Shown here: positions 9,406-35,367 of the stretch, piece by piece | Position numbering within the stretch: the first letter of the stretch is position 1 | Layout of the letters: each line of letters opens with the position of its first letter | NCBI GenBank assembly: GCA_947507965.1 | Contig: CANNQU010000026.1 | Location: forward strand, 1 to 41,751 | Length of the DNA: 41,751 nucleotides | Direction: 5' to 3' | Source of the DNA: Bacteroidota bacterium | Lineage (GTDB): Bacteria; Bacteroidota; Bacteroidia; UKL13-3 | Program-made: the position numbers and the translations under genes | Notes under the pieces: model-generated | Database searches by the model: none | The model's input: the letters and a program-made list of their open reading frames with translations, nothing else | What the model was told of the DNA's origin: nothing

Positions 9406-10347
9406 TTAACGTATTAATTTCTTGGAGATCATACCTTCGGTTGAATTGATCGTAATAATATAGAGGCCTGGTGTAATTCCATAAAGGTCAATATCATCGA
9501 CCCTACTTGCCGATTGTAGAAGTTGACCCTTCATATTGGTAATATGGATGGATTGAATTTCTATGTTAGGCGACACGTGAATTTTATTTTGCTTTACGAT
9601 TATTTCGGTTTCCTTTGTGGCCTCTATGCCGGTATGCCATGCCGAAGGGGTAAAGCGATATATCGTGCCATTGGGAGGAGTTCCGGTTAAGGTAGTAGCA
9701 AACGACATGTTTGCTGTTCTCAAAGTAGGATTCGATGGATTTCCTTCCAACACAATAAAATTCGTTGAAATGGTCAAGGGGTCTGCAATCTGCACATAGG
9801 GGCCCATTTCTCCATTATAAGAGGTTGATTTCACTTGATTCGGACCATATCGGAACTCTAAGATACTCGATGTTTCATAAATCCATAATTGAAAATTCAT
9901 TGAGTCATTGAAGGCAGGGGCATCGGCCATAAAGCCGGCATTATGAAACTGAATTTTCAATATTCTATTCGGGGTACCGCCTTCCGTTTTGTAACTCACC
10001 TCCGATTTGTTATTGCCTCTGCTATTTAAATCGGTTCCAAACACATCGAAGTAACCATTATTGATGCTATTAAAATAGAGCCCTCCCCAGTCGGTAACTT
10101 CAATAGAGTCGTTGATATTTTGAAAAAAGAATTTAAAGGAAAAGGGTGTCTTAAATAATTTTGAAAAATCATCCCAGTTGCCATTTAATAAACTAGTTCC
10201 ACCTGTAATTTCGGAATAGGTGCCCGTGCTTTTTGCAAAAGAATAATACTGGGATTGAGAGGCAAAAGGCAACCAAAGAAGAAAACCAAGGATGAGTAAT
10301 CGCTGTAAAAAAAATCTTTTTTTGTGATGGAGTCTTGTGAAATTCAT
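9406..10347 (-). CDS. Secreted protein with short T9SS-type tail (paralogue 1)
   Basis: A 313-residue exported protein. The signal peptide covers about residues 1-33 (hydrophobic LLILGFLLWLPFA, ending SQSQ). The body is beta-rich with the shared motifs FSFKFF, DLNSRG, PNRILKIQF, IYETSSILEFRYGPN and IYRFTP. The last 70 residues resemble a type IX secretion sorting domain (ITNMKGQLLQSAS, DIDLYGITPGLYIITI, ISKKLIR), but the usual N-terminal YPNP...L.I part is shortened to HVSPN. It is a clear paralogue of the next gene upstream. It is probably secreted or surface-attached; the function is unknown. It ends 28 bases before valS. Confidence 0.8.
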   Translation of the reverse strand: MNFTRLHHKKRFFLQRLLILGFLLWLPFASQSQYYSFAKSTGTYSEITGGTSLLNGNWDDFSKLFKTPFSFKFFFQNINDSIEVTDWGGLYFNSINNGYFDVFGTDLNSRGNNKSEVSYKTEGGTPNRILKIQFHNAGFMADAPAFNDSMNFQLWIYETSSILEFRYGPNQVKSTSYNGEMGPYVQIADPLTISTNFIVLEGNPSNPTLRTANMSFATTLTGTPPNGTIYRFTPSAWHTGIEATKETEIIVKQNKIHVSPNIEIQSIHITNMKGQLLQSASRVDDIDLYGITPGLYIITINSTEGMISKKLIR

Positions 10348-17172: not shown

Positions 17173-17727
17173 CTATTTCTTTGGGGCAGGGTTTGGTGCT
17201 GGTGCCGGTACTGGAGCAGGAACAGAAATACCTAGTTTTACCTTCACCGATGCTGAAATATCGTCGGCTTCGGGTTTTACTAAAAGTGCCTGATCATCCA
17301 TCACATAGTTGTAGCCTTTTTCTTTCGCCACTTGCTCAATTGCTTTTTGAAGTTTCTTTTGAATAGGCTCTAATAGCTCTGCTTGCTTATTTTGCATATC
17401 GGTTTGGGCATTTTGTGCAAATTCGTTAATCCTTTGATCTAAATCGGTGAGTTCCTTTTCTTTCATCAATCGCATGGCATCCGAGGTCTTCGCTTTATCC
17501 ATCAAACTATACGCTTCTTGTTTTTTCTGCAACTCCACCTGATAGCTCGTAATTTCGGCCTTCAACGACTTGGTTAGGCTATCCAGCACTAATTCTGCAA
17601 TTTTATAATCATCCATTTTCTGCATAATCTCATTAGAATTCACGTGAGCAATTCGTTGCTGTGCGTTTCCTACGAAACTAATCGATAATAGTAATACGGC
17701 TAAGGCGGCTTTTTTTAGATTCTTCAT
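17173..17727 (-). CDS. OmpH/Skp-family periplasmic chaperone with Pro-Ala tail
   Basis: Skp-like holdase that keeps unfolded outer-membrane proteins soluble on the way to BamA. ATG 17727 gives a clean signal peptide (MKNLKKAALAVLLLSISFVGNAQ); an in-frame ATG at 17772 would add 15 residues. The mature chain starts QRIAHVNSNEIMQKM, the usual OmpH beta-strand, then a long charged helical hairpin (about residues 50-140) for the tentacles, then GYNYVMDDQALLV. The last 15 residues are PAPVPAPAPNPAPKK, a proline-alanine tail not present in the sister gene. It is the last gene of the envelope operon, 80 bases after the other ompH. Confidence 0.88.
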   Translation of the reverse strand: MKNLKKAALAVLLLSISFVGNAQQRIAHVNSNEIMQKMDDYKIAELVLDSLTKSLKAEITSYQVELQKKQEAYSLMDKAKTSDAMRLMKEKELTDLDQRINEFAQNAQTDMQNKQAELLEPIQKKLQKAIEQVAKEKGYNYVMDDQALLVKPEADDISASVKVKLGISVPAPVPAPAPNPAPKK

Positions 17728-17807
17728 TTGAGCGATATAATAATTTGAATATTTGTTTTTTAAAGATTGCAAAGGTGGCTTTTTCTACTGTAATTTAAAA
17801 ATGTTTC

Positions 17808-18356
17808 TTACTTTTTATTTGTCTCATCTGTTACTGCGTACCCCATCAATTCAAGCACATCATCACTCAGGTCGTATTTAATATTTGCCACCAACATGAT
17901 CATTTCGCCATTCTTATCAAAAATAAAGTCGAGGCCGCGTAACTTGGCTATTTTTTGAACGGCATCGAAAATTTTATCTTGAAGTGGTTTTATCAATTCT
18001 TGCTTCTTTTTCTCCAATTCTCCACCTTGCCCAAATTTCGACTTTTGGAAGTCTTTCAATCCCTTTTCTTTTTCCACTATTTCTTGTTGCTTCTTTTGTT
18101 GTTGCTCTTGAGTAAGAACCACCTGTTCGGCCTGGTAATCTTTATACATCCGGTCAATCTCATTGAGGCGCTTCTCGATGTCTTTCTGCCATTCGGCACT
18201 CATATCGTCGAGTCGTTTTTGTGCCGCTTTATATTCCGGCATCTTTCCAAGCATATATTCCGAGTCAACGAAAGAAAATTTTTGTGCTTGAGAACTTGTG
18301 GTAGCTGCTATGGTAAAGAAGCATACTGCGATAAAAAATTTATTTAATGATTTCAT
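17808..18356 (-). CDS. OmpH/Skp-family periplasmic chaperone
   Basis: A 182-residue Skp-like chaperone. The signal peptide covers about 1-24 (ending SSQAQ). The mature protein starts KFSFVDSEYMLGKMPEYKAAQ, then a long coiled-coil region rich in Lys, Gln and Glu (about 45-125), then the second core strand GLDFIFDKNGEMIMLVANIKYDLSDDV. Tandem ompH genes directly after bamA are the usual arrangement in Bacteroidota (for example the PG0191-PG0193 region of Porphyromonas gingivalis). It is a paralogue of the next gene, but the two have diverged strongly and could serve different clients. Confidence 0.9.
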   Translation of the reverse strand: MKSLNKFFIAVCFFTIAATTSSQAQKFSFVDSEYMLGKMPEYKAAQKRLDDMSAEWQKDIEKRLNEIDRMYKDYQAEQVVLTQEQQQKKQQEIVEKEKGLKDFQKSKFGQGGELEKKKQELIKPLQDKIFDAVQKIAKLRGLDFIFDKNGEMIMLVANIKYDLSDDVLELMGYAVTDETNKK

Positions 18357-18442: not shown

Positions 18443-20938
18443 TTAAAATGCCTGTCCAATACTAAAATGGAAATTGCCTTTTTTTACTCCGGTAGGGTTA
18501 TCAAATCCCCACCCATAATCTAAACCAAGTAATCCCAGCATCGGAAGAAACACCTTCACCCCTGCTCCGGCAGAGCGATATAGCTCAAATGGATTAAAAT
18601 ATTTAAAGGAGTTATAGGGTTTACCAGCTTCGGCAAAAGCCAATAAATAAATGGTTGCGGCCTGACCGGTAGTTACCGGATACCGTAATTCCATGGTATA
18701 TCGATTAAAGATGGTACTTCCGCCATTATGATTCTCATAAATTTGGGTTAAACTACGATCGGCGTAACCACGCAAGCCAATCGGCTCCGTATTGAAATTA
18801 GCATACCCTGTTAGTTCACTTCCACCCATTACATATCGATCAAATGGCGGCACATCAAACGCTTTTTTATAGGTGCCCATAAAACCAAAGCTAGCTTTAG
18901 CATAAAGAACAAACTTTTTAGGAAGGGGGGTAAACCATTGTGCGTCAAAACGCCATTTATGATATTCAACTAATTTATTTCGTTGGGCTAAAGTGGCATT
19001 ATTATAATCGAAGTTCTTTTGAAAAGCAGAGAATGGCGGTGTAAGTAATACGGATAATGAAAAGTTAGATCCAGAAGTAGGGAAAATAGGATTATCTATC
19101 GAATTACGTGCGATGGTACCTTTATAGTTGACGTTATGTGAGATGCCATTATTAAAGACTTCATTAATTCCGTCATTATTTTTCACCGCGATGAGTTGAT
19201 AATTATGTAAATCATATAACTGATAGGTAAGTGCATGGTTAATCGAAAAGAAATCATCCGGCCATTTCAGGTGTTTCCCTAGGCCTACACTCGCTCCAAT
19301 AATTTTCATTAGTGATTTTGAGGGGTCGCTATATTTTAAATAATCGGAAGAAAGAATGGTATAGTACGTACTGACACTGAACATATTGGGGCGCTTACCG
19401 CCCAGCCATGGTTCTGAAAAAGAGGCATTAAAAGAGGTATAGTAAGCACCTGATGACTGTGCTTTAACACTCAATCGCTGTGCATCGCCACTTGGAATGG
19501 GAGTCCATTCACTCTTCCGAAAGAGCTTTTGAGCAGAGAAATTATTCAAGGTTAAACCTAAAGTACCTACAATATAACCGCCACCCCATCCGCCTTGTAG
19601 CTCAATTTGATCCGACGGTTTTTCCTCCACGGTATATTCAATATCTACGGTACCTGTTTCTGGATGTGGCGTAGGCACCACATTACCTTTTTCAGGATCA
19701 AAAATACCCATTTGGGAAAGTTCCCGTTGGGTACGGATGATATTTGCACGACTAAATTTATCGCCCGGCTTGCTACGTATTTCTCGTAAAATCACATGGT
19801 CGCTGGTTTTTGTGTTTCCTTTAATGGTAATGCTATTTATGATCGCTTGTTTGCCTTCATAAATTCGCATCTCCAAGTCGATGGAATCATTCTCTACTAA
19901 GACCTCCACAGGAGTAATATTGAAAAACAAATATCCATCGTCCATATACAATGAACTAACATCGAGGCCGCCCTCGTTATAGGTCAGCTTTTTATCGAGT
20001 AACGATTGATTGTAAATATCGCCATTATGCAAACCCAACACTTGATTTAACTGTTCGATGGTATATTTTGTATTCCCGATCCAATTTATTTTACGGAAGT
20101 GGTACTGATTGCCTTCTACTATTTTAATATGAATAACTAATCGATTGGATTTAATACTATAAACGGTATCTGTTTTTATTTGTGCATCTCGATATCCCAA
20201 GTTATTATAGCGTGCGATAACTTTTTCTTTATCGTCTTGATATTCCGATTCTTTGAACTTCCCTCCTTGGAAAAAATACCAACGATACCTTTTTGTATCC
20301 TTGAGGGTACGGTAAAGTTTAGAAGAGGCAATATTAGCATTCCCTTCAAATACGATATCACCAATACGTACTTTATCACCTTTTTGAACCTTAAAAACCA
20401 GGATGCTGCTATTTCGTGAAGTGGTATCATTTACTTCATTTACCGCCACCGTAACATTACTGAACCCTTTCCCAATATAATAACCTTTAATATTGGTTGA
20501 TGCCTTATTTTTTAGATATTCATTAACGATATCCCCACTCTTTATTTTCACTTCATCTTTTAAATTTTTAGCTTGATTCTTTGAAAGGCCTAGAAAGCTA
20601 AACTTTGCCAATCGAGGTCGTTCTTCAACCTTAATGAGCAGGTATATTTTATCTTCTTCCATTTTAGCAATAAGCACCTGGATATCACTAAAAAAGCCTT
20701 GCCTCCATAAGTTGTCGATAGCGCGAGAGACCTCTTCTCCCGGCATATTAATGGTTTGGCCAATGGCCAGACCTGCGATATTGTGAATTAAAATGGTGGT
20801 ATCGAGATAAACGGCTCCTTCCATTTCCACACCACCTAAAATATATTTTTTAGGCACATCAAAATTATATTTAAAGTAGGTTTGGGAAAAGCCGAAAAAA
20901 CTTAGTAAAAGAAGTGAAAAGGTGATTTTATTCCTCAT
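18443..20938 (-). CDS. bamA: Outer membrane protein assembly factor BamA
   Basis: An Omp85-family protein of 831 residues that inserts beta-barrel proteins into the outer membrane. It has a signal peptide (MRNKITFSLLLLSFFGFSQ) and periplasmic POTRA repeats over about residues 25-420 (for example GDIVFEGNANIASSKLYRTL, FRKINWIGNTKYTIEQLNQVL, INSITIKGNTKTSDHVILREI, each with the typical G-N and long helix). It ends in a 16-strand barrel domain (about 440-831) with the lid-loop motif MGGSELTGY, a VRGF/Y variant region, and the C-terminal strand GNFHFSIGQAF ending in the required aromatic. It lies between uppS and ompH in the operon. Confidence 0.95.
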   Translation of the reverse strand: MRNKITFSLLLLSFFGFSQTYFKYNFDVPKKYILGGVEMEGAVYLDTTILIHNIAGLAIGQTINMPGEEVSRAIDNLWRQGFFSDIQVLIAKMEEDKIYLLIKVEERPRLAKFSFLGLSKNQAKNLKDEVKIKSGDIVNEYLKNKASTNIKGYYIGKGFSNVTVAVNEVNDTTSRNSSILVFKVQKGDKVRIGDIVFEGNANIASSKLYRTLKDTKRYRWYFFQGGKFKESEYQDDKEKVIARYNNLGYRDAQIKTDTVYSIKSNRLVIHIKIVEGNQYHFRKINWIGNTKYTIEQLNQVLGLHNGDIYNQSLLDKKLTYNEGGLDVSSLYMDDGYLFFNITPVEVLVENDSIDLEMRIYEGKQAIINSITIKGNTKTSDHVILREIRSKPGDKFSRANIIRTQRELSQMGIFDPEKGNVVPTPHPETGTVDIEYTVEEKPSDQIELQGGWGGGYIVGTLGLTLNNFSAQKLFRKSEWTPIPSGDAQRLSVKAQSSGAYYTSFNASFSEPWLGGKRPNMFSVSTYYTILSSDYLKYSDPSKSLMKIIGASVGLGKHLKWPDDFFSINHALTYQLYDLHNYQLIAVKNNDGINEVFNNGISHNVNYKGTIARNSIDNPIFPTSGSNFSLSVLLTPPFSAFQKNFDYNNATLAQRNKLVEYHKWRFDAQWFTPLPKKFVLYAKASFGFMGTYKKAFDVPPFDRYVMGGSELTGYANFNTEPIGLRGYADRSLTQIYENHNGGSTIFNRYTMELRYPVTTGQAATIYLLAFAEAGKPYNSFKYFNPFELYRSAGAGVKVFLPMLGLLGLDYGWGFDNPTGVKKGNFHFSIGQAF

Positions 20939-21007: not shown

Positions 21008-21748
21008 CTACTTTATTTGTTCACTGGTTTTGCCATAACGTCGCTCTCTGCCCTGGTAGTCGATGATTGCTTCATAGAGGTTATCTTTTCTAAAGTCGGG
21101 CCATAATATATCGGTGAAATAAAATTCAGCGTATGCTAACTCCCATAATAAAAAATTACTGATCCGGTGTTCACCACTCGTTCTGATCATCAAATCGGGG
21201 TGAGGAAACGCCCCAGTGGAAAGCCTCTGATTCACTTCCTCTTCGCTAATGTCTAATGCTCTTAATTTCCCACTTTCAACCTCGTCAGCCAATTTTTTAA
21301 CGGCATTCACAATATCCAATTTAGCGCTATAACTCAATGCTAAAATCAATGTGGTACTGGTATTATCCTTTGTAATTTCAATACATTCCTGAAGTTCTTT
21401 GAAACATTTCTCCGGTAATTGCTTCAATTCTCCAATCGCTTGCAAACGGATATTATTTTTCATCAGGGTTTTGGTTTCCTTTCGGATGGTTTTAACCAAC
21501 AGTTCCATCAGAGCTGACACCTCAAAAACAGGACGCTTCCAATTTTCTGCACTAAACGCATACAATGTTAAATACTTAATCCCTAACTCAGCGCTTGCCT
21601 CAATAGCTTCTCTCACCGATTTAATGGCACTCTGATGTCCAAAAATCCTTAACTTCCCTTTATTTTTTGCCCATCGTCCATTACCATCCATTATAATGGC
21701 AATATGCTGAGGCAGATTTTTGATATCTATTTTTTCTTTTATACTCAT
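21008..21748 (-). CDS. uppS: Isoprenyl (undecaprenyl diphosphate) synthase
   Basis: Cis-prenyltransferase that extends farnesyl diphosphate with isopentenyl diphosphate to the C55 lipid carrier for peptidoglycan and surface glycans. The catalytic P-loop region is present as HIAIIMDGNGRWAKNKG with its Asp, followed by GHQSAIKSVREA, YLTLYAFSAENWKRP, and near the end LMIRTSGEHRISNFLLWELAYAEFYF with the conserved Arg-x-Ser-Gly-E. The length of 246 is normal. The frame can also start one codon earlier at GTG 21751, but ATG 21748 is preferred. Its neighbours porG-like and bamA are the conserved ones in this phylum. Confidence 0.96.
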   Translation of the reverse strand: MSIKEKIDIKNLPQHIAIIMDGNGRWAKNKGKLRIFGHQSAIKSVREAIEASAELGIKYLTLYAFSAENWKRPVFEVSALMELLVKTIRKETKTLMKNNIRLQAIGELKQLPEKCFKELQECIEITKDNTSTTLILALSYSAKLDIVNAVKKLADEVESGKLRALDISEEEVNQRLSTGAFPHPDLMIRTSGEHRISNFLLWELAYAEFYFTDILWPDFRKDNLYEAIIDYQGRERRYGKTSEQIK

Positions 21749-21837
21749 CACGAACTACGAACCACTGAATAAGCCACCATACGATTAAAACCCAACACGG
21801 TTATCCGATTACTACGAAAACAAAGCCTGCAAAGTTA

Positions 21838-28437: not shown

Positions 28438-28671
28438 ACTTAAAGACAAGTTGGTTATAATTTTAAAGGGCAAGGATAAAACGATCGGGTACAACAATCG
28501 AATGGTAAATAACGTTTACAATATTCCAACATTTTTCGAATATATACAGATAATGTGTGTTAAAATTGATTTTCTAAGCTACCCTACAAAAGCAGTTTCA
28601 CGGATAACGGCTTTCAATGAAGAAAAATTAAAGGGACGGCCTCGACTTTTAGATGGCCAATTGGCATAATA
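28438..28671. other. Intergenic region between prc and tRNA-Cys
   Basis: A 234-bp stretch with no convincing gene. A TATCCTTG word on the minus strand, one base off the -7 consensus, may be part of the prc promoter. Confidence 0.4.
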
Positions 28672-28705
28672 AAGGGAGAACTAAAGGCACCTTTAATTCT
28701 CCCTT
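28672..28705 (-). terminator. Hairpin after tRNA-Cys
   Basis: On the minus strand AAGGGAGAATTAAAGG and CCTTTAGTTCTCCCTT form 16 pairs (one G-U) around a 2-base tip, starting 5 bases after the tRNA. The downstream bases are TATTATG, so the T-tract is poor, but the stem length supports termination or 3' processing. Confidence 0.65.
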
Positions 28706-28710
28706 GGATG

Positions 28711-28781
28711 AGGTCCCGAGCGGGGTCGAACCGCTGTACGAGCTTTTGCAGAGCTCTGCCTAACCACTCGGCCACAGGACC
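28711..28781 (-). tRNA. tRNA-Cys (GCA)
   Basis: Minus-strand cloverleaf: acceptor GGTCCTG pairs with CGGGACC, anticodon stem GAGCT/AGCTC with loop CTGCAAA (anticodon GCA), T arm AGCGG-TTCGACC-CCGCT. The discriminator is T (U73), the known tRNA-Cys identity base. CCA is not encoded. Confidence 0.95.
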
Positions 28782-28791
28782 ATCTTATGCT

Positions 28792-28823
28792 GCAAAAATA
28801 GATTTTTTTTTTGCTTCACACAA
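28792..28823 (-). promoter_or_regulatory. -33/-7 promoter of tRNA-Cys
   Basis: On the minus strand TTGTGTG (28823-28817) and TATTTTTG (28800-28793) followed by C lie about 20 bases apart. The -7 word is exact and sits 11 bases before the tRNA 5' end. Confidence 0.7.
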
Positions 28824-28928
28824 TATTTTTATCTCACCTACCCATGGCACGATTATTAATACTTGCATATTCCACCGGAGCAATACGAAATCGACAGACA
28901 ACAATTGGTTTTTTGTATTTTCGCCACC

Positions 28929-30803
28929 ATGGTTTTAAAAAAGTGGTGGTTTATTTTACGATACTTTGGGTTTTGGATGGTAATTTTTGCTGTTTACCGG
29001 CTTCTATTTCTTGCTATCTATCACTCCAAACTTCAGCAAGATAGTTATTTTTCCATTCTAAGCAGTTTCTATCATGCCTTGTATTTAGATGTCTCGTCAG
29101 CATGTTATATTTTGGTTTTGCCTACCTTATTGCTCGGGCTTGGATATATTACTCAAAATCAAAAATTCATAAAAGCAATTCACATTTACACTATTTTTTT
29201 TATTTTTCTATACTCGTTTATTGCCTTAGGAGAAGATGGTATTTATGGGGAGTGGGGCACGAAGCTCAATTACCAGGCATTAACCCATTTCATGCATTTC
29301 AATGAAGTGATCAGCACCGTGTCGAGTTCCTTATTAATCTCCTTTATTGTGGCCAGTAGTTTATTGGGTGGCTTGTTTACCTGGTGGTATTGGAAGGTCA
29401 TACGATTCGATACCCTTTACACCGAGCTGAAGTATCCTTTGGTACGTTATTTACTAGGCCTGACGGTATTGTTTTTAAACTGTTTAACCATTTTTACCGG
29501 CATCAGAGGGGGGTGGTACCCCATTCCTATTAGTCAAAGTGTTTCCTACTACAGCAGGAACCCGGTGCTCAATGATGCGGCAGTAAATTCGGGGTGGAAT
29601 CTATTCTCCAATATCTCTGAAAATTATTTCAATTTGGACCGCAGTCCTTTTTTAGCGATGTCATCAAAAGAGGCCCAAGCCATTGTGGATGAGCTCTATA
29701 AAACACCTCAAGATACCACCATAGAAATTTTAACTACCAACCAACCGAATATCTGTTTTATCATACTAGAAAGTTGGAGTGCGGAGGTCGTTGGTGGTTG
29801 TGGCGGTATCAAAGGCATCACCCCAAACTTCGACTCCTTAAGTTCAAGCGGGGTTTTATTCGACAACATGATTGCTTCGGCCGGAGTATCCGATCAAGGT
29901 ATTGTGGCTATTTTGAGTGGTCATCCACACACCTACCGACTCTATTTCAACCGACAAACGGAGAAGACAAAAAAAATTAGTTGTTTAAGCAAGGCGTTTA
30001 AAAAACAAGGGTATTCATCTTGCTTCTATTTTGGAGGACAACTAAGCTATGGCAATATTAAAAGCTACTTGTATAGTCAGGATTTTGATATCATAAAAGA
30101 AGAAAAAGATTTTGATGATGCATTGCCACGTGCACGATTGGGCCTACATGACGGGATTATGATGCAGCAATTTGCCCATGCCATGAATACAGCGAAACAA
30201 CCTTTCCTTTATAGTCTCTTTACCATTAGCTCCCATATGCCGTATGATATTCCATCCGTGCATCAATTTGATCATTTAAAAGAAGAGGGGAAGTATGCGA
30301 GTAGTGTTTCCTATAGCGATTCTTCCTTAGGCGAATTTTTTAAAACCGCGAGAACGATGCCTTGGTATAAAAATACCTTGTTTGTAATGGTTTCCGATCA
30401 TTCACATAATTCCCCCGTCTTTAATTTCATGCAATCGGCTGAATTCAATCATATTCCCTGCCTATTTTTCGGGGAGGTAATAAAACAGAAATACAAAGGC
30501 ACCCGTATTAGCCGGCGGGTAATGCAGGCCGATTTAGCGGCTACCCTTCTAAAACAATGCCATATAAACACGTCTGCCTTTCCTTGGAGTAGAAATATGC
30601 TTAACCCCACCACACCGCAATGGGCATTTTATCCGGTGCAAAGTGGGGGTGGCTTTGCCGATAATAAAAACTGGGTTGCTTTTGATACCCAACGAAATAG
30701 CTTCTTTTTGAGCAGTAGTACTGATTCAGTAGAAGTAAAGAAACTGAGAAAAAAAGGAGAGGCCTTACAACAAGTGCTTTTTGATGAATTTTTAAAGTTT
30801 TAA
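28929..30803 (+). CDS. LtaS-like membrane sulfatase / phosphoglycerol transferase family protein
   Basis: A 624-residue alkaline-phosphatase superfamily enzyme of the LTA-synthase type. ATG 28929 starts MVLKKWWFILRYFGFWMV; 22 in-frame codons before it are not membrane-like. Five hydrophobic segments occupy about residues 8-210, then a periplasmic sulfatase domain: NICFIILESWSAEVVGG (first metal Glu), the region with the likely nucleophile ASAGVSDQGIVAILSG, SSHMPYD, and FVMVSDHSHNSP (metal Asp/His). In Firmicutes this family polymerises glycerol phosphate; in Gram-negative Bacteroidota the role is mostly unknown and may be head-group transfer to a lipid or glycan. A TATTTTCG word (28916-28923), one base off the -7 consensus, lies 5 bases before the start. 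It precedes the FKBP array by 47 bp. Confidence 0.87.
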   Translation: MVLKKWWFILRYFGFWMVIFAVYRLLFLAIYHSKLQQDSYFSILSSFYHALYLDVSSACYILVLPTLLLGLGYITQNQKFIKAIHIYTIFFIFLYSFIALGEDGIYGEWGTKLNYQALTHFMHFNEVISTVSSSLLISFIVASSLLGGLFTWWYWKVIRFDTLYTELKYPLVRYLLGLTVLFLNCLTIFTGIRGGWYPIPISQSVSYYSRNPVLNDAAVNSGWNLFSNISENYFNLDRSPFLAMSSKEAQAIVDELYKTPQDTTIEILTTNQPNICFIILESWSAEVVGGCGGIKGITPNFDSLSSSGVLFDNMIASAGVSDQGIVAILSGHPHTYRLYFNRQTEKTKKISCLSKAFKKQGYSSCFYFGGQLSYGNIKSYLYSQDFDIIKEEKDFDDALPRARLGLHDGIMMQQFAHAMNTAKQPFLYSLFTISSHMPYDIPSVHQFDHLKEEGKYASSVSYSDSSLGEFFKTARTMPWYKNTLFVMVSDHSHNSPVFNFMQSAEFNHIPCLFFGEVIKQKYKGTRISRRVMQADLAATLLKQCHINTSAFPWSRNMLNPTTPQWAFYPVQSGGGFADNKNWVAFDTQRNSFFLSSSTDSVEVKKLRKKGEALQQVLFDEFLKF

Positions 30804-30807
30804 TCCT

Positions 30808-30815
30808 TAAATTCG
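30808..30815 (+). promoter_or_regulatory. -7-like element before the FKBP array
   Basis: TAAATTCG followed by C is one base off TAnnTTTG and lies 35 bases before ATG 30851. No clear -33 TTG is present, so the array could also be read from the sulfatase gene. Confidence 0.35.
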
Positions 30816-30850
30816 CGCCCAATTCTAAATAATTTTCATTAACATCTATT

Positions 30851-31723
30851 ATGACCAAGTTTTTCATCACCCTTGCAACCGTCGGAATGCTTATTTTATC
30901 TTGTAATAAAATGCAAAAAACGCCGAACGGTTTGAAATACAAAATTTTCACCTCTAACGATGGGGAAAAAATAACATCCGGCTCTTTGGTGTTCTTCAAA
31001 GTTGTTATCAAAACTGGCGACTCTTCCATATTTGATACGCACAAGAACACCGAAAGACCATCCATGAATATGTTAGTTCAAGAGGAAATAAGTCCGGCAA
31101 ACTTCGAAGAAGGCTTAACCCTTCTAGGTAAAGGAGATAGTGCTTTGTTTTTAATTAATGCCGACTCCTTCTATAAAGTATATGCACGCACACCGACTCC
31201 CTCATTCATTAAAAAAGATAAGATATTGAAATTTTTTGTCACGATTGACAGTTTCATCACTAAAAAAACAATGGCTGAAAGGAAAGCAATGCTTGAATTA
31301 GAAAATGCGGAAAAACAAAAAACCGAGGAGATTACGATAGAAGAGTATATCAACAAGTCGGGTAAAAAATTTACTAAAACCTCAACCGGACTATATTACC
31401 TCATTACCAAAGCTACCCAGGGAGCTACAGCATCGATTGGAGATAAAGTTGGTACCAACTACACCGGTACTTTAATTGGTGGGAAGGTATTCGACTCCAA
31501 TACGAAAGACGGTAAAAGCGAACCTTTTGAATTTGTTTTAGGAATGCATAAGGTCATTGCAGGATGGGATGAAATGTTCGGGATTTTACATCTTGGAGAA
31601 AAAGCAACGATTGTCGTTCCCTCTTCACTTGCTTATGGACCGGAAGGTTCAGGAGATGATATTGGCGCCTTCACTCCGTTAATTTTTGATGTTGAATTAT
31701 TAACCATCACTAAAAACAAATAG
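30851..31723 (+). CDS. FKBP-type peptidyl-prolyl isomerase, lipoprotein (array gene 1)
   Basis: A 290-residue exported FKBP protein. The lipobox LILSC (Cys18) predicts a lipoprotein. The first FKBP-like domain (about 25-140) keeps FDTHKN but has lost the active-site Trp: the VI-GWDEG block reads ISPANFEEGLTLLGKGDSA. The second domain (about 175-290) is canonical: NYTGTLIGGKVFDSN, VIAGWDEM, SSLAYG, TPLIFDVELL. The linker (about 140-170) is a charged helix. It is the first of five tandem FKBP genes, 4 bases before the next. Its likely role is folding or chaperoning of exported proteins at the membrane. GldI of flavobacteria is also an FKBP lipoprotein needed for gliding, but assignment to GldI is not supported. 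Confidence 0.88.
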   Translation: MTKFFITLATVGMLILSCNKMQKTPNGLKYKIFTSNDGEKITSGSLVFFKVVIKTGDSSIFDTHKNTERPSMNMLVQEEISPANFEEGLTLLGKGDSALFLINADSFYKVYARTPTPSFIKKDKILKFFVTIDSFITKKTMAERKAMLELENAEKQKTEEITIEEYINKSGKKFTKTSTGLYYLITKATQGATASIGDKVGTNYTGTLIGGKVFDSNTKDGKSEPFEFVLGMHKVIAGWDEMFGILHLGEKATIVVPSSLAYGPEGSGDDIGAFTPLIFDVELLTITKNK

Positions 31724-31727
31724 TTAT

Positions 31728-32618
31728 ATGAATACGATACGACTCTTCTTATTTTCAGTTCTGACTTTATTATTTTGTAATACACAGGCACAGGGCTCAA
31801 AGGTTAAAACAAAAAAAACTCCCGGGGGATTAGAATATAAAATTTTTATTTCCAAAGGGGGTGTAAAAATCGCATCCGGCGATATGGTATATTTTAAAGT
31901 GGTGGGAAAAGCAGGAGACTCTACGCTATTCGACACCTACAAAAATGTACGTCAACCCTACATGAATTTGATCGTTAATGAAACCATCCATCCGGGCAAT
32001 TTCGAAGAAGGATTAATGTTGCTGGGTAAAGGTGATAGCGCTTTGTTTAAAATCAATGCTGATTCTTTTTACGGCGTATATATGGGAACTGAAGTACCTA
32101 GCTTTATTAAAAAAGGAGAGCCCCTTTTGTTTCTCGTACAAATTGACAGTGTGATTGGTAGCAAGGTATTGAAAGCACGAAGTGATGCGCAAGCAATAAT
32201 GGTTAAGGAAAAGCAAAAAAATGAGGCGAGTGTTATTGAAAATTACATACAGAATTCAGGAATAAAATATACTAAAACAGCCACTGGCCTTTACTATATT
32301 ATTACGCACGCAACCAATGGTAATAAGGCATCCAACGGTGATCAAATAGGCGCCAATTATACTGGGAAATTATTAAATGGGGTGGTATTCGATTCGAATG
32401 ATAAAACCGGTAAACCCTTTGAATTTAAACTGGGTGCACATCAGGTAATCGCCGGTTGGGATGAAGCTTTTGAATTATTGAATTTGGGAGAAAAAGCAAC
32501 CCTGTTGCTTCCCTCTGAACTTGCTTATGGTGCGCAAGGTGCAGGGAATGATATTATGCCTTATACCCCTTTAATTTTCGATGTGGAATTAGTTACCATC
32601 ACTAAAGCAGAAAAATAA
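31728..32618 (+). CDS. FKBP-type peptidyl-prolyl isomerase, periplasmic (array gene 2)
   Basis: A 296-residue exported FKBP protein. The signal peptide is MNTIRLFLFSVLTLLFCNTQAQ; its Cys17 is preceded by Phe, a poor lipobox, so ordinary signal peptidase cleavage after QAQ is more likely. The first domain (about 30-145) is FKBP-like but degenerate: VYFKVVGKAGDSTLFDTYKN and IHPGNFEEGLMLLGKGDSA, with no Trp. The second (about 180-296) is canonical: NYTGKLLNGVVFDSN, VIAGWDEAFELL, SELAYG, YTPLIFDVEL. It is a close paralogue of gene 1 in layout and sequence, 4 bases after it and 1 base before gene 3. Confidence 0.87.
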   Translation: MNTIRLFLFSVLTLLFCNTQAQGSKVKTKKTPGGLEYKIFISKGGVKIASGDMVYFKVVGKAGDSTLFDTYKNVRQPYMNLIVNETIHPGNFEEGLMLLGKGDSALFKINADSFYGVYMGTEVPSFIKKGEPLLFLVQIDSVIGSKVLKARSDAQAIMVKEKQKNEASVIENYIQNSGIKYTKTATGLYYIITHATNGNKASNGDQIGANYTGKLLNGVVFDSNDKTGKPFEFKLGAHQVIAGWDEAFELLNLGEKATLLLPSELAYGAQGAGNDIMPYTPLIFDVELVTITKAEK

Positions 32619-32619
32619 A

Positions 32620-33507
32620 ATGAATTCAATCCGGCTTTTTTTAGTTTTATGTTTTACTTTCATACTACTGAATTTGCAGGCGCAGGGTTCCAAAAACAAG
32701 ACTCAAAAAACATCTCTTGGCTTGGAATACAAAATTTTTACCGCCAACAGCGGCGATAAAATTGCTTCCGGCGACCTGGTGTTTTTCAAAGTAATAATTA
32801 AAACGGGCGACTCCATTATTTTCAACACCTATAAGAATGCGGAAGGCCCTGCCATGAATTTATTGATACAGGATAAAATTAGTCCCGCAAATTTCGAAGA
32901 AGGGTTAACCTTATTATGTAAAGGTGATAGCGCCTTGTTTCTTATCCATGCCGACTCCTTCTATAGTATCTACACTCATTCTCCAACGCCTGACTTTGTA
33001 AAAAAAAGCGAGCCACTGAAGTTTTTTGTCAAAATTGACAGTATTATTACCAAAGCAACGTTAGCAGAAAGTAAAGCACTCGTAGAGCAAGAAAGTTACG
33101 TAAAGCAGCAAAACGAATCCATGGTTCTGGAAGCGTATTTGAAGCGCACTGGATTGGCCTTTATACGAACCACCTCGGGGTTAAATTATTTAATCACTAA
33201 AAAAACAAATGGGCCAAAGGCCCATGCCGGCGATAAGATAGCGGCCTTTTATACTGGAAAACTTCTGGATGGAACAGTGTTTGATACGAACAAAGAATCC
33301 GGACAACCTTTTGAATTTACCTTAGGTGCACATCAAGTGATAGCAGGTTGGGATGAAATTTTCGAAATCCTCAACGAAGGAGAAAGCGCTACCCTGGTTT
33401 TGCCATCGTCGTTAGCATATGGAGAAGGTGGAACGGGATCCAGAATAGGCGGCTATTCGTCGTTGATATTTGATATCGAGTTCGTTAAAATCAGTAAAGC
33501 AGAATAG
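32620..33507 (+). CDS. FKBP-type peptidyl-prolyl isomerase, periplasmic (array gene 3)
   Basis: A 295-residue exported FKBP protein with signal peptide MNSIRLFLVLCFTFILLNLQAQ. The N-terminal domain (about 30-145) is close to that of gene 1 (ISPANFEEGLTLLCKGDSALFLI), and the usual FD after the Gly is FN here (IFNTYKN), so a further active-site residue is changed. The C-terminal domain (about 180-295) is complete: FYTGKLLDGTVFDTN, VIAGWDEIFEIL, SSLAYGEGG, SLIFDIEF. It starts one base after the stop of gene 2, which suggests coupled translation. It may act on different clients from its neighbours. Confidence 0.87.
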   Translation: MNSIRLFLVLCFTFILLNLQAQGSKNKTQKTSLGLEYKIFTANSGDKIASGDLVFFKVIIKTGDSIIFNTYKNAEGPAMNLLIQDKISPANFEEGLTLLCKGDSALFLIHADSFYSIYTHSPTPDFVKKSEPLKFFVKIDSIITKATLAESKALVEQESYVKQQNESMVLEAYLKRTGLAFIRTTSGLNYLITKKTNGPKAHAGDKIAAFYTGKLLDGTVFDTNKESGQPFEFTLGAHQVIAGWDEIFEILNEGESATLVLPSSLAYGEGGTGSRIGGYSSLIFDIEFVKISKAE

Positions 33508-33511
33508 TTCG

Positions 33512-34366
33512 ATGAAACTTCGTTCGTTACTCCTGTTTTTTTTAATTTTCTTCTTATTTGGAAGCGAAGCCAATGCGCAATATCTTACAGGACCTAACGG
33601 TGTTCATTATTTTTTTTGGAAAAGTGGTGGACCTGCGCAGCGTGCCGAAATTGGTGATTTAGTGTTTATGGATGTGGTAGGGAAAACCGAGACCGATTCC
33701 ATCATATTAAGTAGTTATATGCAGGGACAACCCTTCCAAATATTTGTTCCTACGCCCACCTACAGAGGCTGTTTTTATGAAATGTTTACCCTGCTTGGGG
33801 AAGGAGATAGTGCTGAAGTTTCGGTTGTTGCCGACTCTCTTTACCTAAAATCGTTCGGCAGGAAGCTGCCTGATTATATACGAGAAGGGAGTAAAATTAA
33901 AATCACGTTAAAGCTCTCTTCCATTGTTACAAAAAAAGAATATGACGACCGAATATTGGAGGAAGGAAAGCATGCTTCTGAGAATCAAACGTCCGATATT
34001 GAACGCTATATTTCAGAGAAGAAACTGCAAATGACCAAGTCAAGTTCCGGAATGTATTATCAATTCGCATTGAAAGGATCTGCCCGACGTGTTAAAAAAG
34101 GCGATATCGTATTGGTTCATTATACCGGCTACTTCCTGGATGGAAAAATATTTGACAGTAGCCTCTCGCGAGAACAGCCATTTGAGTTTGAAGTAGGAAA
34201 TGGAGGTGTAATCAAAGGTTGGGATGAAGCATTACAATTGATGTCGATACGTGATAAATTAATGGTCATCATCCCCTATCAGCTAGGTTATGGCGAAAAA
34301 GGGAATACCGGAATTCCACCCTTTACACCGCTTATTTTCGAAATTGAACTACTAAACATCAATTAA
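33512..34366 (+). CDS. FKBP-type peptidyl-prolyl isomerase, periplasmic (array gene 4)
   Basis: A 284-residue exported FKBP protein, the most divergent of the array. ATG 33512 gives the signal peptide MKLRSLLLFFLIFFLFGSEANAQ; the frame is open from 33470, inside gene 3, but that extension is not signal-like. The first domain keeps only the outline (LVFMDVVGKTETDS, YRGCFYEMFTLLGEGDSAEV) and lacks the FD and Trp positions. The second domain (about 170-284) is canonical: HYTGYFLDGKIFDSS, VIKGWDEALQLM, YQLGYGEKG, FTPLIFEIEL. It lies 4 bases after gene 3 and 2 bases before gene 5. Confidence 0.86.
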   Translation: MKLRSLLLFFLIFFLFGSEANAQYLTGPNGVHYFFWKSGGPAQRAEIGDLVFMDVVGKTETDSIILSSYMQGQPFQIFVPTPTYRGCFYEMFTLLGEGDSAEVSVVADSLYLKSFGRKLPDYIREGSKIKITLKLSSIVTKKEYDDRILEEGKHASENQTSDIERYISEKKLQMTKSSSGMYYQFALKGSARRVKKGDIVLVHYTGYFLDGKIFDSSLSREQPFEFEVGNGGVIKGWDEALQLMSIRDKLMVIIPYQLGYGEKGNTGIPPFTPLIFEIELLNIN

Positions 34367-34368
34367 TA

Positions 34369-35241
34369 ATGCCTAACTATTTATACCTTATATGCCTCAG
34401 TATCCTTTTAGGATGTAGTGGAACAAAAAAAACGGTTACTTCTCCAAGTAAATCCAATCCAGGCAATTCGAATTTATCAGCCACAAAAGAAAACCAAAAA
34501 CAACCCATGAAAGGTCCTGACCCTGTGATTACGTCAAGCGGACTCCGCTATATTATTTTGCAACATACCGCTGGGAGCAATAAACCCAAAAATGGAGACA
34601 AAGTCTCTGTTCATTATCGGGGTAAACTGGAAGACGGCACCGAATTCGACAACAGCTTCAAACGCGGAGAGCCCTTTGAGTTTCAGTTAGGAATAGGAAA
34701 AGTAATCAAGGGGTGGGATGAGGGAATCGCTCTTTTGGCGGAAGGAGATTCAGCCTTACTCATTATACCCCCTTCGCTTGGATATGGAGATCGAGTAATT
34801 GGAAGCATCCCGGCCAACTCCACCTTGTATTTCGAAGTAGTGCTCGTAAAAATAAAGGAGCCCCTTTTTGCAACCGAATACAATTGGCAAAACAAGCAAG
34901 AACATAGTACGGCTTCGGGTTTAAAATATTATATCGTAAAAGAAGGCACCGGGGCCGCTGCCTTCGTAGGAGCCAAGGTAAAAGTGCATTATACCGGCTA
35001 CCTCAAGGATGGAAAAATTTTCGACTCATCCGTATTGCGTGAAGAGCCCATTGAATTTAGTTTAGGTACCGGAATGGTAATTAAGGGGTGGGATGAAGGG
35101 ATATTACTGATGCGACAAGGCGCAAAATATCGATTTTTAATTCCATCCGGCTTGGGTTATGGCGACCAAGACGTTGGAGAAGGTGTAATTCCAGCCAATT
35201 CAGAGCTTATTTTCGACTGTGAATTACTTGAAGTAAAATAG
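34369..35241 (+). CDS. Lipoprotein with two intact FKBP domains (array gene 5)
   Basis: A 290-residue lipoprotein (lipobox SILLGC, Cys16) with a Ser/Asn/Lys-rich linker to about residue 48. Both FKBP domains look catalytically complete. Domain 1 (about 50-163): HYRGKLEDGTEFDNS, VIKGWDEGIALLAEGD, LGYGDRVIGSIPANSTLYFEVVL. Domain 2 (about 180-290): HYTGYLKDGKIFDSS, VIKGWDEGILLMRQGA, LGYGDQDVGEGVIPANSELIFDCELLEV. Unlike genes 1-4 it kept Tyr, Phe-Asp, Val-Ile, Trp and Tyr in both domains. It closes the array; a 159-bp gap follows. Confidence 0.9.
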   Translation: MPNYLYLICLSILLGCSGTKKTVTSPSKSNPGNSNLSATKENQKQPMKGPDPVITSSGLRYIILQHTAGSNKPKNGDKVSVHYRGKLEDGTEFDNSFKRGEPFEFQLGIGKVIKGWDEGIALLAEGDSALLIIPPSLGYGDRVIGSIPANSTLYFEVVLVKIKEPLFATEYNWQNKQEHSTASGLKYYIVKEGTGAAAFVGAKVKVHYTGYLKDGKIFDSSVLREEPIEFSLGTGMVIKGWDEGILLMRQGAKYRFLIPSGLGYGDQDVGEGVIPANSELIFDCELLEVK

Positions 35242-35367
35242 TTTTAAAAGGGAATAAACGCAAAAAAGGTTTATCCATAATTCTCACGAGTCTCCATTAA
35301 TTTATTCCCTTTAAGTTGCAGATTGATATCCAATTTTTGTAGCTGCTTCGTTTCCCAATAATTTTAA

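Follow-up and report, generated by a model that had tools for sequence, protein, structure and literature searches.

A five-gene array of two-domain FKBP proteins in a Bacteroidota genome and its relation to the nrnA-gldI locus

Layout of the array and export of its products

Five consecutive genes for two-domain FKBP proteins, here named K1 to K5, were analyzed in contig CANNQU010000026.1 of a Bacteroidota bacterium (lineage UKL13-3, assembly GCA_947507965.1); the window is the whole stretch of 41,751 nucleotides. In one lineage, a conserved Bacteroidota cluster has expanded into this array, which is new in its details (the N-terminal domain, the link to GldI and a relocation) and not in its kind. 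All five genes are on the plus strand: K1 encodes a two-domain FKBP lipoprotein (30851..31723, 290 aa), K2 and K3 encode two-domain FKBP proteins predicted to be soluble and periplasmic (31728..32618, 296 aa, and 32620..33507, 295 aa), K4 encodes a two-domain FKBP of a separate lineage, also predicted to be soluble and periplasmic (33512..34366, 284 aa), and K5 encodes a double FKBP lipoprotein (34369..35241, 290 aa). The open reading frame (ORF) calls and the Pfam matches agreed with an earlier note on this DNA, which had described five tandem plus-strand genes of 284-296 codons with intergenic gaps of 4, 1, 4, and 2 bases and two FKBP-like domains in each product. The start of K4 was taken at the ATG at 33512; the mechanical ORF opens at a TTG at 33470.

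Pfam FKBP_C (PF00254), at a threshold of E 1, matched every array protein in two stretches, and all five passed the curated cut-off of 21.1 bits with scores of 98 to 213 bits. Since the whole-protein E-values ranged from 3.7e-28 to 5.3e-64, the array is not a product of chance. The same Pfam scan found no cyclophilin domain (PF00160) in K1-K5. Amino-acid identity is 57-59% among K1, K2, and K3, and 30-36% between K4 or K5 and the other array proteins, as well as between K4 and K5 themselves. Elsewhere in the genome (3.36 Mb, 99.93% complete), one FKBP_C match was found, in a 145-aa lipoprotein on contig C61.

N-terminal signal sequences were recognized by eye on all five proteins, in line with the export that had been claimed for them. 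A pattern search combined with inspection by eye identified lipoboxes in K1 (SC|NKMQKT) and K5 (GC|SGTKKT), and the signal sequences of K2-K4 were seen to end in sites of the QA|QG or NA|QY type, with no convincing lipobox found by eye in these three. No acidic surface-export signal, as defined in the available passages of PMC12578637, follows the lipobox of K1 or K5. K1 and K5 are described here as probably lipid-anchored to the outer membrane on its periplasmic side, and K2-K4 look free in the periplasm. Among 102 proteins of the related clusters described below that fit a loose lipobox pattern, 12 carry at least two acidic surface-signal residues.

A plus-strand gene of the sulfatase family (PF00884; 28863..30803) lies upstream of K1, 47 bases away, and is a possible start of the array transcript. 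That the genes form one tight run, as had been proposed, was supported by weak evidence: no TANNTTTG element, which we take to be the Bacteroidota -7 promoter motif, was found on the plus strand of 28601-35300. Separate promoters were considered and set aside: sigma-70 style promoter matches at the array (22) did not exceed those in shuffles (mean 19.5), which is weak evidence either way.

Pocket residues in the two kinds of FKBP domain

An eroded N type and an ordinary C type of domain were distinguished using in-house profiles, the order being N-C in K1-K4 and C-C in K5. The eroded N domains occupy residues 27-136 of K1, 34-143 of K2, 34-143 of K3, and 30-139 of K4, and the C domains of the same proteins, all with an intact pocket, occupy residues 180-287, 187-292, 187-292, and 180-284, respectively. 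In K5 the pocket is intact in both domains (residues 58-163 and 184-290). The isomerase pocket was evaluated at seven positions (Y26, D37, V55, I56, W59, Y82, and F99, presumably by FKBP12 numbering), with similar residues allowed at five of them, in an alignment of 374 domains out of 68 loci. Within the window the pocket residues are intact in six of ten domains; the exceptions are the N domains of K1-K4, in which Y26, V55, I56, and W59 are lost and a tyrosine is kept at the Y82 column, a residue reading that is limited by the alignment of such diverged domains. The ten FKBP-like domains counted in the earlier note are thus present but not equal, four of them having lost pocket residues. Throughout the alignment, all seven positions are kept in none of 115 N domains, 90 of the 116 C domains of N-starting proteins, 98 of the 106 domains found in proteins of the CC or CCC type, 17 of 19 single domains of other kinds, and none of 18 GldI-like domains.

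A six-frame search of the genome using PF00254 placed seven array domains over the curated cut-off, namely the six pocket-bearing domains and the N domain of K2 (26.1 bits); the N domains of K1, K3, and K4 were absent from the match list of this search. The N-domain profile gave 115.4 to 122.8 bits for the N domains that PF00254 did not list, which is not an independent score because the N domains of K1-K4 were among the sequences that went into the profile. A tree including the array domains (79 domains, 107 columns), of the kind that had been called for, resolved 21 N domains from 9 loci as one group with support of 100/100 and left many forks open.

The profile of the two-domain proteins aligned to FkpA 84-226 and Mip 57-211, linker included, and this match across the linker and the FKBP domain suggests an arrangement like that of Mip, preceded by a pseudo-FKBP domain. 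A non-catalytic N-terminal part, a linker, and a C-terminal FKBP domain are common to both; however, the N-terminal part of FkpA and Mip is a helical dimerization domain, whereas that of K1-K4 is an eroded FKBP domain. In one alternative, the proteins are general FkpA-like foldases, housekeeping periplasmic isomerases that were expanded for dosage or substrate range and have no special tie to GldI, to the type IX secretion system (T9SS), or to gliding. In its favor, K5 scored 200.9 bits against NF008150 (which we take to be PRK10902, FkpA; cut-off 215), and NF008150 and NF008602 were within the top three matches of all five proteins; the other four scored 77 to 89 bits against NF008150. The presence of a single further FKBP_C match in the genome also counts on this side.

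The best solved-structure matches in both profile searches, 3jym and 3jxv, were multi-FKBP proteins. Wheat FKBP73 and FKBP51/52 likewise carry tandem FKBP domains in one chain; they are eukaryotic proteins with TPR tails, whereas K1-K5 are exported bacterial proteins encoded in a gene array.

The cluster and its slot in other Bacteroidota

FKBP_C was present in 57 of the 58 genomes surveyed, that of the window included. Loci were drawn from this survey (60 stretches, including contig C61 of the window's own genome) and from titled records (the best 80 by the two-domain-protein profile). Clusters were defined by an N-domain gene scoring >60 bits with the in-house profile, which gave 68 loci, the window and some near-duplicates (e.g. 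L055 and L151) included. These contain one gene in 5 cases, two in 28, three in 10, four in 21, five in 2, and six in 2, and 102 of the 129 intergenic gaps within clusters are of 60 bases or less. The maximum of ten domains per cluster is reached by two of the 68, one of which is the window. Both six-gene clusters belong to Hymenobacter (L104:9983-14328 and L123:7150-12037) and include some single-domain lipoproteins in which, in contrast to K1 and K5, the lipobox cysteine is closely followed by acidic residues (e.g. CKKDDEK); such lipoproteins may be surface exposed. Among the titled carriers are Fibrisoma, Pontibacter, Hymenobacter, Mucilaginibacter, Pedobacter, and a Spirosoma metagenome-assembled genome. 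The N-domain profile matches 149 of 198 class genomes at E 1e-5, and the weakest of these matches may be ordinary FKBP domains. The search for the array in relatives that the earlier note had proposed found the cluster widely; the array is not unique, other clusters reaching five or six genes. No description of the array or of an nrnA-gldI-FKBP cluster was found among the matches listed in the openly licensed PMC literature.

Of the 68 clusters, 58 are immediately preceded by a DHH gene in the same orientation. One more is cut off by the end of its contig, and the nine without an adjoining DHH gene are five of the window's genus, three of another genus in its family, and L130. The upstream gene is of the DHH/DHHA1 type and NrnA-like, scoring 103.1 bits versus an NCBIfam cut-off of 350 in the one protein tested. 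A GldI-like gene, identified using an in-house profile built from six such genes, heads 18 of the 68 clusters. GldI itself was found above its curated cut-off in 5 of 198 class genomes, and in all five loci gldI is flanked by the DHH gene immediately upstream and an FKBP-domain gene downstream, so that the lead to GldI taken up from the earlier note was borne out; the follower is a cyclophilin-FKBP fusion in both of the loci scanned (L179 and L181). At the 25 next best GldI-like loci, a DHH gene is found upstream in 20 and an FKBP gene downstream in 24. GldI-like genes that were tested singly matched almost the full GldI model with 71 to 92 bits, and those fetched in the search of the 198 genomes reached about 90 to 107 bits. 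In the domain tree, three GldI-like genes that head arrays group with the five GldI proteins on a single branch (97/83).

All 18 GldI-like domains have L, V, or I in place of W59 and Y in place of D37, and the five over-cut-off GldI sequences (L179-L183) have similar pocket residues by eye. GldI may, from these residues, be a pseudo-isomerase. In Chryseobacterium and relatives, a GldI-like gene precedes a larger FKBP gene: such pairs occur in L137, L150, L156, and L174, and in L144:8711-10339 the larger gene is a cyclophilin-FKBP fusion. Chryseobacterium departs from the common locus in that its GldI-like gene adjoins a cyclophilin-FKBP gene and the fetched stretch contains no DHH gene. In its available passages, PMC6316441 describes gldI as encoding a cyclophilin-FKBP fusion; this was not used, as in the loci here the GldI gene has a single FKBP domain and the fusion is a distinct neighboring gene. 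The fusions of Flavobacterium and Chryseobacterium resemble the array genes in being an FKBP-domain partner beside gldI (L179, L181) or a GldI-like gene (L144), and they differ in their cyclophilin domain, which K1-K5 lack.

GldI (TIGR03516) is an exported FKBP-fold lipoprotein in the slot that related clusters occupy, and the C halves of K1-K3 can be aligned to its model. It differs in that the model has 177 positions and one domain, whereas K1-K5 have two and score 35 to 61 bits, below the cut-off of 157.6; GldI-like domains lack an intact pocket, whereas each of K1-K5 retains one in at least one of its domains. A more specific history than that of general FkpA-like foldases is suggested by the conserved slot behind nrnA, which GldI and the GldI-like heads have in common, and by the wide occurrence of the N domain without a pocket. 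The recurrence of independent duplications in several genera would fit dosage or diversification; on balance we consider the FkpA-like explanation unlikely, although it is the strongest of the alternatives.

Searching the window's genome and six others of its family with the GldI model gave a best match of E 7.9e-16 to the C half of K2 (58.7 bits, model 42-176), and the matches listed for the window's genome were the C halves of K1-K3. None of the GldI-labelled genes (24 in total) lies in the 35 loci fetched from the family. In most clusters of the family a two-domain lipoprotein follows nrnA, and outside the window's genus every fetched cluster of the family adjoins nrnA except L044, L068, and L074, all from a single genus, and L070, which stops close to the end of its contig. 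The heads of the clusters in L044 (8827-9288), L068 (12867-13328), and L074 (2591-3055) are lone N domains in lipoproteins of ~153 aa, each followed by a triple-FKBP gene; the head of L044 had no NCBIfam match.

Repeated tandem duplication, which the earlier note had given as the origin of the array, holds for part of it. In a tree of 57 two-domain proteins, K1, K2, and K3 form one clade with 8 rows of the genus (100/100), but K4 joins 4 genus rows in a second clade (100/100); sequences from other genera lie between the two clades with support of 93/84. The five genes are not one duplication series, because K4 is of a separate lineage and K5, with its two intact FKBP domains, of another; as judged from these sequences, K1-K3 is a genus-only expansion. 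Parallel duplications were seen in other genera in the same tree. The other four members of the genus have two K1-K3-clade genes each, one of them enlarged to N-C-C, which indicates that copy number is still changing; in L042:7307-8647 the second gene encodes an N-C-C protein of 446 aa whose second C domain arose by internal duplication. Recent copying of K1-K3 was rejected because substitutions at synonymous sites have reached or nearly reached saturation among the three, whose proteins are 59-60% identical in this comparison. K1 is closer to K3 in N-half windows (N-domain pairing 99/90) and to K2 in most C-half windows, which is no more than suggestive of gene conversion among the three.

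The ratio of nonsynonymous to synonymous substitution rates (dN/dS) between L039 and L041 was 0.050, 0.058, 0.014, and 0.039 for four genes, showing purifying selection on the array genes between two species of the genus. Such strong constraint on each of the four genes, together with the near-zero gaps and with N domains that are conserved yet have lost pocket residues in 115 of 115, would be compatible with K1-K5 forming one hetero-oligomeric chaperone particle in which the eroded N domains serve as assembly interfaces. Two-gene clusters are nevertheless commonest (28 of 68), five clusters have a single gene, and K1-K3 is a genus-level amplification, so that a single particle appears improbable. 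That the products are needed together, as the earlier note had suggested from their compactness, likewise goes beyond the data.

Proposed role and its alternatives

The reading we favor, and regard as fairly probable, is that the array is an expansion of an nrnA-gldI-type FKBP locus making periplasmic isomerase-chaperones for outer-membrane and T9SS clients; periplasmic folding factors, as first suggested, are the likeliest role. Where the proteins are located, whether they act as enzymes, which clients they have, whether the N domains form a clamp, and whether the set stands in for GldI are points that we infer. The C-terminal FKBP domains of K1-K4 would isomerize prolines, and the eroded N domains, joined to them by a probably helical linker, may act as a client-holding or dimerizing clamp. 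K5 would bring two working isomerase domains. Together the proteins would help to fold or stabilize secreted proteins and lipoproteins of the outer membrane, among them components of the T9SS and the gliding machinery, and the array would take the place that GldI holds in other families.

According to the available passages of a review (PMC9127263), GldI of F. johnsoniae is needed for gliding, for chitin use, and to keep GldJ and GldK stable, and the SprA translocon is bound by a different isomerase, which is dispensable. SprA and GldK were found in the window's genome and a GldI-like gene was not, so that T9SS and gliding parts exist there without a GldI-like gene; this, with the facts from the review, is what leads to the putative isomerase-chaperone role for T9SS-related clients. 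A secreted protein encoded on the minus strand of the window (9406-10347) has a weak match to the C-terminal type IX sorting domain (23.7 bits versus a cut-off of 27), which is in keeping with the presence of SprA.

Several observations weigh against this reading. SprA is present in 191 of 198 class genomes and is thus too common in the sample for presence or absence to test a T9SS link; co-occurrence hardly discriminates and was set aside as evidence, and two of the seven genomes without SprA (G073 and G091) still match the N-domain profile. The tie of two-domain or double-FKBP proteins to the T9SS or gliding is itself one that we infer. Among the GldI-like loci, L196 has no FKBP gene in 1.5 kb downstream, its upstream side being cut by a contig edge, and the upstream sequence of L184, L204, L205, and L206, about 1.4 kb each, contains no DHH gene. 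Members of the window's genus do not have the array next to nrnA: it stands behind the sulfatase-family gene in five of five loci, and nrnA lies elsewhere (C5:64534-65526 in the window's genome), followed in the three loci read by genes that we take to encode a TPR-like lipoprotein and a HAD-like hydrolase. Finally, a single-FKBP lipoprotein behind nrnA in L046, of the same family, is nearer to BamJ (94.1 bits over nearly the whole model, cut-off 100) than to GldI (36.5 bits).

The last observation speaks for a further alternative, namely that the array encodes accessory subunits of the Bacteroidota beta-barrel assembly machinery (BAM) complex, comparable to the surface-exposed isomerase lipoproteins BamJ, BamK, and BamM, which are FKBP-fold envelope lipoproteins of the same phylum. 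Two 2025 papers report, in the passages available, isomerase-fold lipoproteins in this complex (PMC12578637, PMC12611786), and the isomerases differ among species (PMC12611786). Whole K5 scores 146.8 bits against BamJ (NF053689, cut-off 100), and K4 94.4 bits (C half 96.7), and a bamA-like gene lies about 10 kb off in the window. The K5 score is, however, a sum over two domains, the halves giving 80.6 and 70.8 bits, each under the cut-off; K1 and K5 lack the acidic surface signal, K2-K4 lack a convincing lipobox, and no array protein exceeds 49.5 bits against BamM (NF053691, cut-off 315). Membership of K5 in BamJ was accordingly judged doubtful and set aside. The minus strand of the window carries the bamA-like gene (18443-20938, with POTRA and Omp85 domains), an OmpH/skp-like gene (17808-18356, by Pfam), a similar gene (17173-17772), and a uppS-like gene (21008-21751). 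The bamA and the two OmpH/skp-like genes have no counterpart in the other fetched loci, a weak point as most of these reach <10 kb from the cluster, and their proximity was also set aside as evidence. A role as BAM subunits is considered very improbable.

The isomerase-chaperone reading can be extended to a broader and more speculative proposal, which we hold to be rather unlikely: the eroded N domain would define an unrecognized Bacteroidota chaperone family born at the nrnA-gldI locus, whose two-domain members would have wholly replaced GldI in the window's family, GldI would be a pseudo-isomerase clamp, and mixed oligomers of the five products would hand clients from clamp to isomerase while the T9SS and outer-membrane lipoproteins are assembled.

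The passages on GldI in the available part of PMC9127263 leave its mode of action unstated. The present comparison places GldI in a multi-FKBP cluster in which its own pocket is eroded and those of its neighbors are kept, and so raises the question of whether GldI requires a catalytic FKBP partner encoded at its own locus. A second question is whether two-domain FKBP proteins may stand in where GldI is missing. The genome of the window, with GldK, SprA, a ten-domain array, and no GldI-like gene found, would be a natural test case.

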